A DNA stretch of 64,000 nucleotides from Toxonevra muliebris (Eukaryota > Arthropoda > Insecta > Diptera > Pallopteridae). The notes under the pieces were generated by a model that was given only the letters and a program-made list of their open reading frames with translations, made no database searches and was not told where the DNA came from. Positions 6,604-63,042 of the stretch are shown piece after piece. Every line of letters begins with the position of its first letter. Position 1 is the first letter of the stretch. Location: positions 66,290,079-66,354,078 of the forward strand of contig OY829327.1 of assembly GCA_963691655.1 (NCBI GenBank), in the 5' to 3' direction. Both the position numbers and the translations under genes were made by a program.

Positions 6604-6911
6604 CCCAAAGGCAGAAAAGAGCTTCTGTGCTTCTAAAACGCCTCATTAAGAAACACTTGGAAAACACTTTGAATTCGCTATGCACAAGTGAACGAAATTT
6701 ACTCAGTCAGTATCTTGTCTTTTTTATACAAATATGGTAGAGAAATAGAAATACAGAAGTGGTTTGAAATTCGTTTATTCTATTAGTATCGATAAAAAAG
6801 TGGTTCTCAGTGTTGATAAAAAAAACCGAACCGAATAACTAGGGATGTGCCAAACTTGATCGAAAGTCGACTTTTACTTTCGACTTTTAGTGCAAATTTT
6901 TTTATAAGTGC

Positions 6912-7165
6912 CAATTCTATAGTTTGACTTTACTTCATCCATACTTAACAGTTCAGGGTGTGGTAATGAAACGTAATTTTTCGTCAAAGTGACAAACTGA
7001 CTAAGTCGCAACAATGTATAAAGAGCAGGTAAATCATACGGCCGTTTCGGAACCTGCCACGATTCCTCATCAGTGATCTTTGTGATGGTTCTTACTAGCA
7101 TTTCAACATTCTATATAAGTGTTTAATATTTGAAAGCGTTACCAAGAATTACATGGTTTTTGTTT
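6912..7165 (-). repeat. Ribozyme-bearing dispersed repeat, copy 1
   Basis: Minus-strand sequence around the hammerhead matches 60108-60258 (-) over about 150 bp, with a shared run of TATATAAG and AATATTTGAAA upstream of the ribozyme. It also matches 20056-20225 (+), including AACTGTT and AAAGTCAAACTAT downstream. A 75-codon minus frame (6874-7101) crosses it. I think that frame is incidental because the RNA fold explains the conservation better. Confidence 0.55.
7028..7081 (-). ncRNA. Type I hammerhead ribozyme motif, copy 1
   Basis: Read on the minus strand (7081 to 7028): stem I 5' half AGAUCA; core CUGAUGA (7073-7067); stem II GGAAUC, loop GUGGCA, GGUUCC; core GAA then A15.1 (within 7048-7045); a short stem III with AC and GU around loop GGCC; cleavage triplet GUA (7039-7037); stem I 3' half UGAUUU. 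Every base needed for a hammerhead core is present. Stem I pairs 6 of 6 with one G-U, stem II 6 of 6 with one U-G, stem III only 2 bp. Predicted cut lies between 7037 and 7036. Very short stem III in type I hammerheads is known from Penelope-like elements and animal satellites, where dimers are often the active form. Confidence 0.75.
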
Positions 7166-7536
7166 TTCAAGTATTTTCCCTGAAGTCATTAACTAACTGT
7201 TAAATATCTAGTTTTAATGAGAATTTCAACAAAATAAGTATAAAGAACAGTTGTATTAGTTCAATTTATTTTAAATTTTACTAAATTTTTCCAACTGTGG
7301 ATTTGTAGTACGTGCATGTGCAGCTTTAGGTACTAGTAATTTTTGAAATTTTATTTCTAAAATAATTTTCTTCCTGTTTAGTCTGCTATGTATTATTATA
7401 CTTCACACATCCATAGGCTGTTCCATTTATTCGCACAAAATTCGCATATGAAGACGAATAATATCAAATAATACCGCCGGAATAAGTAAAAAGACGATGA
7501 ACGTAACAGGGGAAGGAGAGGAGAGGTCGGGGGGTC

Positions 7537-19552: not shown

Positions 19553-20071
19553 AAAATGTTAGTGCCAGTGATATTTGTAAGTACAATTTCAAAATTCGCT
19601 GCTTATTATACATAGTTTTAGGAATTTTGAAAAAACACTGAATAACCCAGATAATAAAATCTCAGAGACCGATGATAATGAATATCTATTATATTTAAGA
19701 TATAAATAGCTGACAGAAAATTTACCAATTTTGTTTCTGTTTTACATATCGTTATCTAAAATTCAAAAAGCCGTAACTATGCAAATTTTCAAAATAGACT
19801 TTTTGAATAATTATGATGCACTTGCCCAAACTACATGTTTCTACAAAATTGTAAACTTCTACGCCCAAAAAATAACGGTTTTATTAACGAAATCCAAAAG
19901 GCCGTAACTACAAGTTTATGAATTTAATAAGCAAATAGACGATTTACACACTCGAATGAAAAAGGAAACAAAATACTTATTTGAATCTTTTTAAGTAAAT
20001 ATTTCAACAAAAATAAGTGTTCAATGAAAATACTTGAAAACAAGCCTCTTGTAATTCTCGGTTAACATCAC

Positions 20072-20124
20072 AAAGATCACTGATGAGGAACCGAGGAGGG
20101 TTCCAAAATGGCGTATGATTTGCC
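20072..20124 (+). ncRNA. Degenerate hammerhead ribozyme motif, copy 3
   Basis: Plus strand: stem I AGAUCA (20074-20079); core CUGAUGA (20080-20086); stem II GGAACC, loop GAGGAG, GGUUCC (20087-20104), six perfect pairs; then AAAA instead of GAAA, so the essential G12 is A; stem III AU/GU around loop GGC; GUA (20113-20115); stem I 3' half UGAUUU (20116-20121). Stem II differs from the other copies at paired positions and still pairs. The G12 change should abolish cleavage. Matching sequence continues to about 20225. Confidence 0.6.
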
Positions 20125-21627
20125 TACTATCATTTCGACAAAAAGGACGTTACAATAAGCCTGATAAACAAATCTTTAACTGTTGAGTTAGCAATCAAGA
20201 AAAAAGTCAAACTATGAAAAATGAACAATTAGATTTCAGTTTCATATTCTCTAATAATAATATGTAATTAAGTGATTCTAAACCTACACAATTACATTTT
20301 TCTTAAAACTATTATATTTTTCATTTTACAATGTTTTTTGCTCCTCCTGTAAAAAAAATAAAATGTTTAGTTACGCCTTTTTGGATTTAAATGACGATAT
20401 AAACTAAACAAACGACAAACTAAACAAAGACAAAAAGCGAACGAAATATAGTAAGTGGCAATAAGTACTTACACTTTAACGTATGTAAATTCATGTGCGC
20501 GCCGCCCGAAGCCAGGCGACTTTAGTAGTAGTTGTTTTGTTATTATTTGAATATCTCGAAAACTATATCTCATTCCACTCTTTTTTTTACACAATTTTCC
20601 TAGCACATTAATAAATATTTGCAGACCAAACAAATTTTAAAAAAAATGTCCAAGTTTGGAAAAATTCAATTTGTTTATAAAATTTCCAGAATTCTTATGT
20701 TGAATAACAAAAACCATTTTATTTTCATATTTTTTCGATAAGTTTGTGCGATATACGAACTTTTATTAGCTAGAAATTTGTTCCTACAATGGTTAGTTTT
20801 TGAGTAATTAGGGATTGAAAAACGTTCCATTTTTACAACTCCAAGACTTTAAAATATCGTAGCTGAAAAATAAAAAAAAATCACATTGAAATAAAAAAAT
20901 ACGCGGCGATTAATTTCTTCTCAAGAATGCAATAAAAAATTTTGGTTGAAATTAAAATTTTAGTTGTAAATCTGACATGGAACGACTCATATATTTCCCA
21001 ACACGCTCGTAAGAAATTTTGGTGTATCCAATCCTGAAACAAACAAACAGAGTAGTAACGCAGACGGTACCCGCTGTTTGGTTAGCAAATTTTTCTGCCA
21101 TTTGTGTTGATCGTTGCGTAGCGGTGCATAAAAATCGCTCATGCACTTATTTTCCTCCCCAATAAAGATTGTCTTTAATTATGAATCTGGTTGTATAAAA
21201 AATGAGGATTCGATCTCATTCATTTGTAAAAGACATTATTCTCATATAACAGACCTAATAAATGAAGTCTCCTTGAGAGTAGGTGTCCTGTGCATGATTT
21301 TGAAGTTACGCATTTTTTGTGATCTACGGCGATCAACAAAATCATAAAAGTTTTATTATTAAAAATGTTTTAAAAGAAAATTGTGATAACTTTTGGTAAT
21401 TCAACACTAAGAAAACGCGGTAGCTTTTGACACTAGAATAACAATTATAATTTGATCTCTGTACATTGATATGAAAATGTGGCCATTCAATGGATAGATA
21501 CAGTACTATTCGCTAATAACGTTCCTGGTTGCAATGAACTATTTTAGCGTTCAAAAGTGGTTATAAAAGCTGAAGCCGAACCTTTTTGAAACTATAAACG
21601 CAAATTAATGTTAGGAAATATGATAAC

Positions 21628-29246: not shown

Positions 29247-30387
29247 AAGGAGTGAGATTGAAAAAATCTTAAAACACGTTTTACCTAATAATTTTTTTTG
29301 GGTGTAAAATTTAAAAATTTCTTTGATCCAGTTATCCTTGAAAAATATGTTAGTTGTTATTTTTAATGACAAACATGATGATTTATTGTGAATTTGATCA
29401 AAGTGAGTGAAAAAAAAGAAATATTTTCAAAAAAAACCAAATCGGTCTTACAAAAAATTGGCCAAAGAATTGAAGGTCTGCCGTCAAACTGTTTCCAATG
29501 TTATTAAACAGTTTCAGGAGAATTTGGCCATTGATAGGAAATCTGGTTCGGAAAGAAAACAAGGACCACATGATATTGGGAAAGCCAAGAAAATAGAAAT
29601 CATATTAACAAGATCTCCAAACACATCTGAAAACATACAAAGTCCAAAAAGTTCCAGACAGGAATGCTGCAAAAAATTTAGACGCCAAAAGTAGGGCTCG
29701 GAAATTGAGATCGAATTTCATACAAAAAATTAGTGTTATATAATGGACGACGAAACGTATGTACTGGCAGATTTTACGCAGCTTCAGCTTCTGGGTCAAA
29801 ATTTTTATGTTGCTGATGCTCGAGGAAATGCTGAAGAACAATTAAGAATCCAAAAGCAGACAAAATTTCCTAAAAAATTCCTGGTATGGCAATCTATATG
29901 CAGTTGCGGCAAATGCCGAAATATACATCAAAGAATGTTTGAAAAAAAGACTTCTTCCTTTCATAAGAGAGCACAATGTGTCCACATATTTTTGGCCTGA
30001 TTTGGCATCATGTCACTACGGCAAGAAAGCTCTGGAGTGGTACCAAAGTAATAACATAGGTTTTGTACCAAGAGAGGCCAATCCTCCAAATTGTCCGGAG
30101 CTAAGACCAGTGAAGAGATATTGGGCTCTTGTGAAAAGAAACTTAAAGAGCACAAACAAGGTGTCCCAAAATATCGAAGATTTTAAAAGGAGATGGGCAA
30201 ACTGTTCCAAAAAGGTGTCTTAAACAACTATCAAATCTCTAATGTAAGGCTTACCAAAAAAGGTCCACGAGTTCATAAATAGTGGTTAGAACTATAAAAG
30301 TTAATATAAAAAATCAAAACTCTAAGATTAACCGTTTAAAAATTATTGAATTTTATATATGTTAAGATTTTTTCGATCTCACTCCTT
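29247..30387 (+). mobile_element. Tc1/mariner-group element, spacing fits DD37E
   Basis: The terminal repeats are 29247-29271 and 30363-30387, 25 bp with 24 identical; each begins AAGGAGTGAGAT. The 1141-bp span holds a broken transposase. A TA dinucleotide lies near each end but is not exactly symmetric, so the outermost bases are uncertain. In the second half, PDLASCH carries the second catalytic Asp and NCPELRPVKRYW the block of the third; the spacing from the Asp to the Lys in PVK is 37 residues, which fits the DD37E group if that Lys replaces Glu. Confidence 0.85.
29407..30223 (+). pseudogene. Broken Tc1/mariner-group transposase
   Basis: Three open pieces remain. 29407-29694 has a helix-turn-helix (NRSYKKLAKELKVCRQTVSN). 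29743-30000 starts MDDETYVLADFT with the first catalytic Asp and continues to KKFLVWQSIC. 29939-30223 has FWPDLASCHYGKKALEW with the second Asp and NPPNCPELRPVKRYW. Pieces one and two share a frame but are separated by in-frame stops (29692, 29731), and the protein signal shifts frame between them. Piece three is in another frame. The third catalytic acidic residue appears changed to Lys (AAG). It cannot encode active transposase. Confidence 0.85.
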
Positions 30388-41859: not shown

Positions 41860-42743
41860 CAAATACAGATGACTTCAAAAATTCACTAGTTTATAAAATT
41901 AATTTTCTCCCGCTGAGTTCGAAAATCATCTTCTTAGAGCCAGCTAGTGAAATCGAAGTATTGCGTATCATTAAAGATCTAAATGTAAAAAAAGGAGCAG
42001 AAATTGATAGAATTCGCCCAAAAGATCTGAAGAATAATGCCTAATTCATAGCACCACTAATAACAAAGCTAGTAAACATGAGTTTGGATGAAGCAAAGTT
42101 ACCAAAAATGTTGAAAACCTCGGTTATAAGACCGATATATAAATCTGGTATCAAATCCGATTATAGAAACTATCGACCCATATCAATACTTCTTGTCTTT
42201 GAAAAAATATTAGAAGATATCCTGGTCAAAAGACTAACTGAGTTTATGACAAAATATAAAGTAATAAACGAAAATCAATATGGATTCCAAAAAGAGAAAA
42301 ATATAAATAAACTATTGGGTAAATTCTCCAGCACGCTTAACAATAACCATCACAGTATAGTGCTCTTTATTGATTTTAATAAGGCCTTCGACACACTTTC
42401 ACGCGAAAAGCTAATAGAAGCACTGCAAAAGGCTGGCGTACGAGGCGAATGCTTAAAATGGTTTGAAAATTATATGACTCTCAGAACTTACAAAGTAATG
42501 GAAGATTATAGCGATGAAGTTCAAGTTACACATGGCGTCCCTCAAGGATCAAAACTATGGCCATTGATGTATATTTCATATACAAACGGAATGCTTAAAG
42601 CTGTTAATAGTAGCACAATATATGCTTATGCAGATGATACGGCAGTTATTGTAAGCCATAAAGATATTAAGACAGCGGAATCAATAATGCAGGGTGAACT
42701 TAATGCTATTACAAGATGGGCACATGACAATGGTTTATTTTAA
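41829..42743 (+). pseudogene. LINE reverse transcriptase, fingers and palm
   Basis: The frame 41829-42044 (ASEIEVLRIIKDL, AEIDRIRPKDL) continues in the same frame after one TAA at 42042 into 42078-42743 (221 codons). In that piece: PIYKSG and YRPISIL (residues 20-38), FIDFNKAFD with the first catalytic Asp (97-105), THGVPQGSK (151-159) and YADD (184-187). All three catalytic acids remain. The TAA looks like a CAA change. A further frame break follows GLF at 42743. Non-LTR type (Jockey/CR1/I side) by motif style; clade not resolved. Confidence 0.85.
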
Positions 42744-59880: not shown

Positions 59881-60107
59881 CAGTAGAACCTCGATAATTC
59901 GAATCTCAAGAGAGTTTTCGAGTTACAGAGGTTAAAAAAATAAAAATCTGAGTTATGAAGGTTTTTTGTTTATTTTATTGGAGAAGAATAAAATACAACA
60001 AAAAACAATTAACAGCCATGTTTAAATTTTGTTTTTTAACAAATGAAATTTACTTATTTGAAGTTATATATATAAACAGGCTTAATGAACAAATGTAGTC
60101 ATCACAA

Positions 60108-60258
60108 CAACAATGTATATAGAGACGGGCAAATCAGACGGCCGTTTCGGAATCCGCCACAATTCCTCATCAGTGATCTTAGTGATAGTTCTTAATCTTT
60201 CAATATCCTATATAAGCTACTAATATTTGAAATCATAACCCAGAATTACGGATTTGAT
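60108..60258 (-). repeat. Ribozyme-bearing dispersed repeat, copy 2
   Basis: About 75% identical by eye to the 7 kb copy, from ACAATGTATA to CAGAATTAC, on the same strand. It lies inside the pogo-like element. Confidence 0.6.
60128..60181 (-). ncRNA. Type I hammerhead ribozyme motif, copy 2
   Basis: Minus strand: stem I AGAUCA; core CUGAUGA (60173-60167); stem II GGAAUU, loop GUGGCG, GAUUCC; GAA with A15.1 (within 60148-60145); stem III AC and GU around GGCC; cleavage triplet GUC (60139-60137), the canonical one; stem I UGAUUU. All core bases are intact. Compared with copy 1, stem II differs at paired sites and still pairs. ACGGCCGU is self-complementary, so a dimeric fold with a stronger stem III is possible. 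Predicted cut lies between 60137 and 60136. Confidence 0.8.
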
Positions 60259-60710
60259 AAAATTTACATCAAATTACATTACTCGTAAACGCAATAATTA
60301 TGTGCCCTGGTCTACCAAAAATGGTGATTCTGATAAAAACAGTAAGCTCTTTTTAATGACACCAACCGCAGATTTCAAGCTTTATTAGAACATTTGCCAT
60401 ACCAACGCGGAAGCGCATCACTATCGACTTGTTTGGTTTAACAGCTGTTTTCTCGTAAACTTGTTTTCGGACGACCAAGGCACATTTGCAAAGAAAAAAG
60501 GATGAATAAGAGGACAATAAGTACATGTTTACTTCAAACCTGACCTCTCAGATTTGCAAAATTTCGAGCTATAGAGATGTAAACGATGGAAATTAGTTCG
60601 AATTACAGGATGTTTGAATTCGAAATCCAGAGGTTTTCGAGCTTTAGCCAAAGGGAAAGAAGAAATTCTTTGGATTACATCGAGATTCAAATTACAGAGG
60701 TTCTACTGTA

Positions 60711-63042
60711 GTAATAATTGTGTGCGTGCGTGCAATTGTATGTGTTATTATTTCATTTCATTACATTATTACAATAAAACGCATTTGCATGTTTATTTTG
60801 ACTTTTTTTTTAAGTATTTTTCTTGTTGTTTTTTTTTTTCAAATTTTTTCTATGAAATATATGCAAAACAATTATAGTTTTTTTGTTTTAAATGAATTGC
60901 ATATTATTTGTTGATGCATTTACATTTGTATTTTACAAGTTATATATATTCAAGTGAAAAATCACTTAAAGCAAATACCGGCAATGGGGTGCGGCATTTG
61001 ATTTGTTAATTTAGCAATTAATTTTGTAGATAACAAGAATATTGAACGCAAATATTTAGACTTATGTATGCACTTAACAACTATTTATTAAAAACCAAAC
61101 ATATTGCATGTACAAACATATGTAAATATGTATGAATAAATATAATGCGATTTATTGAAAGCGAATTGCTATAATTACCTGCATTATTTAAATAGAGTTG
61201 TAAATCAATATCATAAAAATCATAGATTCATATGTACATATACATATTTATGTATGTAACGACATGCAACACAGCTTTTTTAACCCAATTCGCATATTCA
61301 AGTCAATAATTCAATAAAGCCATAATGCCAGAAAATCAATCTGCTAAATTTTTGCTTTTTTTCTATCACGTATCTACTGCAGGTTGCCTGCCTGCCTGGT
61401 TGCTCTGAACAACAACGTCACAAAGCAAACCGGTTTCAGTTTTACTATTAAGTTTTGTTTTCGTTTTGCTCAAGTACGAAACTAGTTAAATTTTGAATGT
61501 TTTTATCACGGAATTTTTGTTGTTCCACCGCCGCAGCCGCTGTCTAATTGTATTCATGTTATGTAGTATAACATGCTTAGAAGTTGTTGTTTTTGCTGTT
61601 GGTGTAGTAGATGGGCGCTTTTGCGCAGCTGCAGCATTCAACTTAAACGCATATAAATATCATGAGAAATAACTTCTTAAAAAGGCAATTTTGTTTGTTT
61701 TGTTTTTGTTTAGAAATACATTGATATAAAATTATTTCAATGACATTTTAAAAAACCACACAAATAGAAATATGCGCGAAAAAAGAAACGGAAACCTGTT
61801 AGTCGCTGCAAAGTGAATGGATTCATAGTATGCGAACTACTTGAATAAAATTATAAAATAATTCCGAAAAAAAATGTAAACGCTTAAATTTGACTAAAAG
61901 AAATTTGAAAAACTTCATATAAAAGTGCACGGTTTATAAGCATAACTTGGCATTTCGGCTGGTAACCCTACCCATAGCTGAAATGAAGGACATAAGATAT
62001 CAAATATGGAATTAAGACTGCGTTACAACCGCTCTTAAATACGCCTTCGATCTGTTTTGTATGAAATTAAAAAATTTCCATTTGCTCTAACTTCAAAACT
62101 TGTTATAAAGTGATTGGTTTTGGATGAGTTTAAGTTGACTTCCCAGTGCTAGATTTGATGGGAACCCCATTTTTGCTGATTGATTATTTTTAATTTTATT
62201 TTTAAGATTTTTGCAATTATTAAATAACAATTTATTTTAGTTCCCTGCAACGTTTCTGAACCTTTAATGCAGTCATTGGAGCAATGGTGAATCTAGGGGA
62301 AAGTGGCCGGCTTAACTCAAAACATGAATTGCGATTCTCAGAACAAACATTTAGTCTTTGAAAAATAAATCCCTTTAATGCTGCCTAAACAATCAAGTTA
62401 CAAAACAATCAGATTGCAATATTAGCCGATCTTATTGGATAAAAACAAAAGTTCTGGAAAACTTTGTATAAAAAAATCGAACGCTAGAATTCAATATAAT
62501 CATTAAATTAATCCGTAGCAATTAATTCTTGTATTCCAATTCGTTTCGGTGGTTTTCAGATCAAAATATGAATGAAGACTTCTTAAAGGGGCATTTCACT
62601 TTAAAATTTGAAGAACAACGATTTTTTTATTTATTTTTGGGTTCCTAATAGTTTCAAGAATACTGTCTTAAAATATTTGTGAAAAATTCGAAGTAAAACG
62701 AAAGCTCAGGGGCCACAAACCATAATGGCTTAAGCCGAGTTAGGACATAATTGAGTTTTTAGTATTATCGCGTTAGATATGTCTAAATCTATTTGCTATC
62801 AATTTTTCATGTTTGAATCTTTTTTAGGACGCCATTATCCATCAAGAAAGTTAAAAAAAAACCGACCCATGAGTGAGTATTTGAATCTTTAGACTGGTTT
62901 CTTGAAAAAATTGGAGAATAGACTTAGGCGGTTATGACTTGTAATCACAGAGTTATATATATATAATTGTGCCTTGGTGTACTAAAAAAGATACCTAACG
63001 TCCAAAAACAGATTTTTAAAATTCAGAATGGCTCATCCAATA
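60711..63042. other. Noncoding stretch
   Basis: T-rich runs (60805-60850) and ATGT words (61115, 61235). At 62294-62316 TAGGGGAAAGTGG with CCGGCTTAAC resembles the end of the TIR element at 45463, but no partner was found. No gene. Confidence 0.45.

Follow-up and report, generated by a model that had tools for sequence, protein, structure and literature searches.

A hammerhead ribozyme within a pogo-like element of Toxonevra muliebris probably belongs to a large family of non-LTR retrozymes

The window analysed here, a stretch of 64,000 nucleotides from the genome of the fly Toxonevra muliebris, carries a type I hammerhead ribozyme (HHR) motif located between the ends of a pogo-like element. 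We attribute this HHR to a non-LTR retrozyme, that is, to a non-coding and non-autonomous retroelement of about 485 nt with thousands of HHR-bearing copies, a reading to which we give a probability of roughly 0.78. The sequence-level evidence for it comprises the repeat unit itself, its tandem arrays, the paired HHR, the direct repeats at the ends of the copies, the pattern formed by these ends, and the presence of one copy within the pogo-like element. A ribozyme that seemed out of place in a DNA transposon would thus point to an extensive family of type I retrozymes in a fly genome. A preliminary description of this DNA had listed Penelope-like elements (PLEs), satellites and retrozymes as the usual homes of such ribozymes, and this list does include the likely answer.

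The hammerhead motif and its predicted folding

The HHR motif covers 49 nt on the minus strand of the window (60131–60179), with all core bases present and 14 of 14 base pairs matched. Read from 60179 to 60131, its sequence is AGAUCA-CUGAUGA-GGAAUU-GUGGCG-GAUUCC-GAA-AC-GGCC-GU-C-UGAUUU. Stem I (AGAUCA/UGAUUU) and stem II (GGAAUU/GAUUCC, with the loop GUGGCG) comprise 6 bp each, including one G-U pair apiece, and stem III consists of one A-U and one C-G pair capped by a GGCC loop, next to a GUC site. The features of a type I HHR are all found here, namely the CUGANGA, GAAA and NUH core stretches and three helices, with the structure open at stem I. From the sequence, cleavage is predicted between C17 (60137) and U (60136). 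The preliminary description had placed the cut at this same position, and its account of an intact core with stems of 6, 6 and 2 bp and a GUC site is confirmed on this strand.

What can be said of the folding of monomers and dimers consists of energy-model predictions. For the lone 49-mer, the minimum-energy fold is not the HHR (-11.2 kcal/mol, the HHR shape reaching -5.0 kcal/mol). Within a precursor of 349 nt, the predicted pair probabilities are 0.56–0.58 for stem II, 0.24–0.29 for stem I and 0 for stem III. Stem III and its loop correspond to the palindrome ACGGCCGU (60138–60145, minus strand), identified from the sequence and from a two-strand fold, which in these predictions can pair with its counterpart in a second copy, giving a dimeric hammerhead. 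The double hammerhead formed through ACGGCCGU is essentially optimal for a related copy located near 7 kb in the window (-32.7 versus an optimum of -32.9 kcal/mol); for the copy at 60 kb, a different optimal structure is 0.4 kcal/mol lower. According to the available text of a survey of metazoan retrozymes (PMC7229834), most invertebrate retrozyme HHRs self-cleave efficiently and the amphibian ones act as dimers; helix III of the invertebrate HHRs is likened there to two pairs with a tetraloop cap. By analogy with this description, the 60-kb HHR could also act alone.

Related copies in the window and the adjoining 200 kb

When the pogo-like element was compared with the window by BLAST, the surroundings of the HHR were found again at 7009–7152 and 20067–20124, at a distance from any match to the pogo ends. 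Two further retrozyme copies are located there. The first (6911–7184, minus strand) is a diverged copy of a GUA subfamily, whose HHR motif (7031–7079, minus strand) has a GUA site and keeps every pair. The other (20066–20260, plus strand) is degraded, its GAAA being changed to AAAA, and is probably inactive. Stem II reads GGAAUU/GAUUCC, GGAAUC/GGUUCC and GGAACC/GGUUCC across the three copies, in which 42 of 42 alignment cells pair, compared with 14.3–54.8% when the partners are slid; the shuffle control is uninformative for three copies, with 334 of 500 shuffles reaching every measure. The 60-kb and 7-kb copies differ at 4 of 49 positions within the HHR and at 20 of 96 in the remainder (Fisher p 0.04). 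Four random changes keep the HHR motif in 2,854 of 200,000 trials, and the four actual differences between these two copies keep it.

We built a covariance model (R1) from the three window copies, which match it for that very reason. In the adjoining 200 kb, R1 detected four strong copies and a weak one (19.7 bits). The core and the pairs are intact in four of the seven strong copies (60 kb, 7 kb, L018:7465 and L018:9924), the GAAA is altered in L017:580 and in the 20-kb copy, and most of stem II is lost in L024:7370. By their site, the copies divide into a GUA subfamily (7 kb, 20 kb and L017) and a GUC subfamily (60 kb, L018 and the arrays described below); copies of the GUC subfamily are near-identical to each other and form both arrays that were read. 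L018 contains a region of nested inverted repeats (L018:8369–9851; arms of 79–95 nt, 82–96% complementary) that looks like a foldback element; it lies between two retrozyme copies that are near-identical, inversely oriented and separated by 2.3 kb.

A unit of about 485 bp dispersed in the genome

The host assembly (491,410,580 bases, 96 contigs) contains the 49-nt HHR 1,371 times in identical form (687 and 684 by strand) and a 15-nt core stretch 3,595 times (1,801 and 1,794), the reversed control giving 0 occurrences in both cases. Among the 100 matches listed, many form runs of two to five with spacings of 483–487 bp, and a further run has spacings of 487–499 bp. The two tandem arrays that were read correspond to 3.2 units of 486 bp at 99% and to 2.8 units of 483 bp at 100%. 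One unit has a GC content of 0.34 and a longest open stretch of 72 aa. The circular fold predicted for one unit reaches -129.8 kcal/mol, compared with -88.7 ± 6.0 kcal/mol for 60 shuffles (z -6.9).

Thirty loci (L027–L056) were taken as the first listed of the 3,595 places, picked for holding ATCACTGATGAGGAA; this choice biases both the HHR pairing near ATCACTGATGAGGAA and the 5′ starts, and makes 3′ ends located just upstream of ATCACTGATGAGGAA invisible. Since L044–L046 and L050–L052 are overlapping views of two arrays, the 52 HHR rows obtained repeat some sites, and 29 distinct rows were counted. In an alignment of these 29 HHRs, which was fitted to the model structure and thus leans towards it, 97.2% of 387 cells pair, versus 17.1–54.7% with slid partners. 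Few shuffles match this alignment in the percentage of paired cells (14 of 500), the covariation score (10 of 500) or the cells changed on both sides (17 of 500), whereas the pairs with both-side changes (280 of 500) and the pair types (370 of 500) are not above shuffles. Outside the host, scans of viral contigs gave 0 and 5 stretches and a scan of genome contigs gave 0; three of the five viral stretches score 16.5–20.8 bits with R1, and a proper GAAA and stem III are absent from the alignments shown. A nucleotide search with the 142-bp repeat gave no match, the window itself included, probably because frequent words are masked in it.

Ends of the copies and a proposed cycle

Among 14 insertions, hand-picked as simple ones, the end repeats have a mean length of 6.5 nt for the true pairs versus 4.8 nt for swapped pairs (permutation p 1e-4), and reach at least 6 nt in half of the tested copies (7/14) versus 22% of the swapped pairs. 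The direct end repeats span 6–13 bp, the longest being found at L040 (13 bp) and L039 (10 bp). L040 holds 1.35 units between its repeats and L039 holds 1.09, so that a single insertion may involve more than one unit.

The ends of 27 out of 43 pieces (those with at least 88% identity over at least 40 nt, L045, L046, L051 and L052 being dropped) were mapped on the unit. The 3′ ends cluster at unit positions 2–13 (12 of 27) and 405–422 (10 of 27). None of the 27 comes within 10 nt of position 334, the cut site, which is spanned by 22 of the pieces. The binomial tail for the 3′ ends is 1.7e-12 even with only 181 positions open. The 5′ starts are scattered among the mapped pieces, with a bias from the choice of loci, and neighbouring unit pieces have opposite orientations in six places. 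The pattern of 3′ ends fits reverse transcription starting inside a circular or uncut multimeric RNA; a linear multimer would explain the pieces of more than one unit equally well as a circle.

In the cycle that we propose, the tandem arrays would be transcribed and the HHRs would cut the multimer into monomers of about 485 nt, acting either alone, with a 2-bp stem III and a tetraloop, or as dimers via ACGGCCGU. The monomers would then be ligated into circles, and a reverse transcriptase (RT) from another element, most likely a resident PLE, would copy the circle or the uncut multimer. Copying would start at fixed internal sites, at AT-rich nicks, and this internal start would account both for the 5′ truncation of pieces and for inserts longer than one unit. 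A more specific version of the copying step, which we put forward as a tentative and rather doubtful proposal, is that the PLE RT starts at two fixed internal sites, about 70–90 and 155–165 nt past the cut site of the circular (or uncut multimeric) RNA of about 485 nt, passes the ribozyme and sometimes rounds the circle, giving copies of up to about three units whose ends do not coincide with the cut site. Were this so, the mobility of retrozymes would be tied to PLE-type internal initiation, and the family would preserve a genomic footprint of its own re-insertion. With 1,371 identical HHRs, clean arrays and intact PLE frames all present in this assembly, the identity of the enzyme that re-inserts retrozymes becomes directly testable.

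Penelope-like elements as a putative helper

PLEs are resident in the genome. At the locus L058, RVT_1 and GIY-YIG domains are encoded in different frames, and the RT stretch of this locus has 148 matches in the genome, with open frames of up to 866 aa. Examples of PLE frames free of internal stops are those at C2:62381971, C3:82088232, C4:32220825, C60:41352, C5:14220772, C3:56000546 and C14:3936; for two such frames, 536 bp near the start were read. The search with GIY-YIG gave two matches, one of which (L057) was read by eye as a host gene. PLEs with intact frames are plausible candidates for the helper of the retrozyme. As described in the accessible part of PMC11167929, a PLE studied in vitro begins reverse transcription within its template, and has a protein-assisted HHR. 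This behaviour suits the end pattern observed here, as an analogy and not as evidence for the T. muliebris genome.

At another locus (L060; C2:62383300–62383835, minus strand), a hammerhead-like motif is located about 220 nt upstream of the likely start codon of a PLE, the frame beginning MKGFFKHIALKYNSETC being, in our reading, the start of the PLE frame. This motif (CTCC-CTGAGGA-T-GGTC...GACC-GAAACGCGTA-GGAG) is smaller than the HHR of the unit, with the palindrome ACGCGU and a GUA site, and its predicted two-strand fold resembles a double hammerhead. It departs from CUGAUGA and is reported neither by Rfam nor by R1; we read it as a putative minimal HHR of the PLE type. The 5′ stretch of the PLE at L059 has no such hammerhead-like motif.

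The copies could alternatively be terminal-repeat and tail fragments of a longer autonomous PLE rather than a separate retrozyme. Minimal type I HHRs are found in the pseudo-LTRs of PLEs, and these elements can be arranged in tandem (PMC11167929, PMC7761336; as stated in the text available for both); the T. muliebris genome contains many PLE RT matches, one of them with the upstream hammerhead-like motif. In addition, the fixed 3′ ends, the 5′ truncation and the inverted neighbouring pieces (six places) are PLE-like. However, the arrays consist solely of the unit of about 485 bp, with no frame longer than 72 aa, and, unlike in a PLE, there is no RT or GIY-YIG frame in the unit or in the two arrays read. 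Moreover, two PLE 5′ stretches (2 x 536 bp, from L059 and L060) show no clear homology with the unit (best E 0.018), and R1 gives nothing convincing on them. We consider an origin of the copies from PLE fragments unlikely, and retain a separate retrozyme as the preferred reading.

Comparison with known ribozyme-bearing repeats

The assignment to retrozymes is based on the sequence-level traits that were examined, which the unit displays, its length being slightly above the described range. In the available text of Cervera and de la Pena (2020; PMC7229834), metazoan non-LTR retrozymes are described as repeats of 150–450 bp with RNAs of 170–400 nt, and insects are counted among their hosts. The traits that they share with the T. 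muliebris unit, as far as this text goes, are a type I HHR with a 2-bp helix III and a tetraloop, an organisation in short tandem repeats (dimers to multimers) present in many copies, a low GC content, the lack of coding capacity and of LTRs, strong self-pairing and co-existence with PLEs. End repeats of more than 4 bp are another shared trait, those of T. muliebris reaching at least 6 nt in 7 of 14 copies. The unit differs from them by its size of 483–499 bp.

The satellite pDo500 of Dolichopoda cave crickets resembles the unit by its description in being an insect repeat of about 500 bp whose 49-bp hammerhead can also form a double hammerhead; its multimers have been reported to be processed (PMC2837043, from the accessible text). 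It differs in being a tandem satellite that represents about 5% of the genome of one species, whereas the T. muliebris copies at the places inspected are mostly short and dispersed, with small arrays. The T. muliebris unit could itself be a tandem satellite that owes its spread to recombination or to other mechanisms at the DNA level, with the HHR as a relic that played no role in it. The tandem arrays, and the existence of ribozyme-bearing satellites of similar length such as pDo500 (about 500 bp; PMC2837043, same text), point in this direction. Yet most of the listed places hold isolated or short pieces whose 5′ ends are scattered and whose 3′ ends favour two positions; end repeats are present and the HHR pairing is kept, which together make this explanation very improbable.

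PLEs, as presented in the accessible parts of PMC11167929 and PMC7761336, resemble the unit by their type I HHR, their palindromic stem III, their tandem and 5′-truncated copies and the internal start of reverse transcription, which is putative for the unit. They differ in encoding an RT and a GIY-YIG domain, whereas the unit encodes nothing. Other HHRs encoded in dipteran genomes are those of Drosophila pseudoobscura, Rhagoletis, Musca and Hermetia; according to the available text of PMC7936874, these belong to type III and have longer helices I and II, unlike the T. muliebris HHR, which is of type I and open at stem I. Among the matches listed in the open-licence literature, the titles and abstract openings mention no type I retrozyme of a fly. 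Among the 25 of 5,317 matches listed for pogo elements, DNA transposons, Helitrons and SINEs, none names a hammerhead ribozyme, a result too limited in scope to carry weight.

Insertion of one copy into a pogo-like element

The element that hosts the 60-kb copy is non-autonomous and 828 bp long (59881–60708), with inverted ends (CAGTAGAACCTC and GAGGTTCTACTG) flanked by TA on both sides; we take it to be pogo-like, as did the preliminary description. Some of the queries made with it spanned 59884–60713 instead of 59881–60708. A Pfam search of its minus-strand peptides gave no match, and no transposase was found among them.

Within this element, a truncated retrozyme copy of 206 bp (60054–60259, minus strand) was delimited by its match to the unit and by an 8-bp repeat. 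Its identity with a 487-bp unit is 98.1% over 60047–60258, and it is bordered on both sides by AAATTTAC (60046–60053 and 60260–60267), a putative target-site duplication; sequences of 8 nt or longer are shared by chance in 77 of 5,000 random zone pairs nearby. The expected sequence of the empty pogo site is TTTGATGTAAATTT/CATTTG.

The preliminary description had presented the ribozyme as lying inside a pogo/Tigger-type transposon. Its location between the pogo ends stands, and would suit an HHR that was an original component of the transposon. This origin is nevertheless highly improbable, and the HHR does not appear to be the transposon's own: the insert is bounded by the 8-bp direct repeat, and the junction between pogo sequence and insert has one exact occurrence in the genome (the sole further match has 2 mismatches), as against 1,371 for the exact 49-nt HHR. 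Furthermore, no BLAST match to the pogo ends was obtained at the six other HHR copies in 264 kb, to which this comparison was confined, with the loci L027–L056 left out. The HHR looks like a passenger that landed in the pogo-like element, and its link with pogo seems incidental. With one HHR and 206 bp, the 60-kb copy should be a dead end; it could at most cut transcripts that cross it.

The motif against chance expectation

Two descriptors were used to estimate how often such a motif arises by chance: a strict one (GAAA, stems I and II of at least 6 bp, stem III of at least 2 bp) and a loose one (stems of 4, 3 and 2 bp). In 9,248 order-2 Markov windows, they gave 3 and 353 matches, respectively. 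In the real window, even the loose descriptor has two matches; both also fit the strict one and are homologous to each other.

An Rfam scan of the 64-kb window gave nothing at the gathering score, nor did any hammerhead family reach E ≤ 10 over 501 bases. Restricting the scan to 75 bases yielded an end-to-end alignment of Hammerhead_1 (RF00163) with 60131–60179 (23.8 bits, E 3e-4; gathering score 34); the same model gives 17.4 bits (E 0.039) on the 7-kb copy. The motif is thus real, with a score under the curated threshold. The type I covariance-model hit proposed in the preliminary description was thus obtained as far as the alignment is concerned, and falls short of the gathering score. That the hammerhead likeness is due to chance or is the by-product of a coding relic is scarcely credible, despite the Rfam score and a minus-strand frame open across the motif (TKITDEELWRIPKRPSDLP), given the three chance cases in 9,248 windows, the pairing kept in 29 distinct copies, the four 60-kb/7-kb differences that all change an amino acid in the open frame yet keep the HHR, and the lack of any homologous protein or Pfam match for the coding explanation.

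Minor observations in the window

On the minus strand, 60166–60245 shows a weak likeness to SNORD24 (27.9 bits, gathering score 41, E 0.014 in 501 bases), also found with 19.4 bits in a further Rfam scan; these matches lie over the core of the HHR and the flank upstream of it, and we take them as a C/D-box likeness. Elsewhere in the window, plus-strand open stretches at 29407–30220 resemble a broken Tc1/mariner transposase, as judged from a motif, and 42045–42740 contains an open reverse transcriptase fragment (PF00078 in homologues), of the non-LTR type by our reading.
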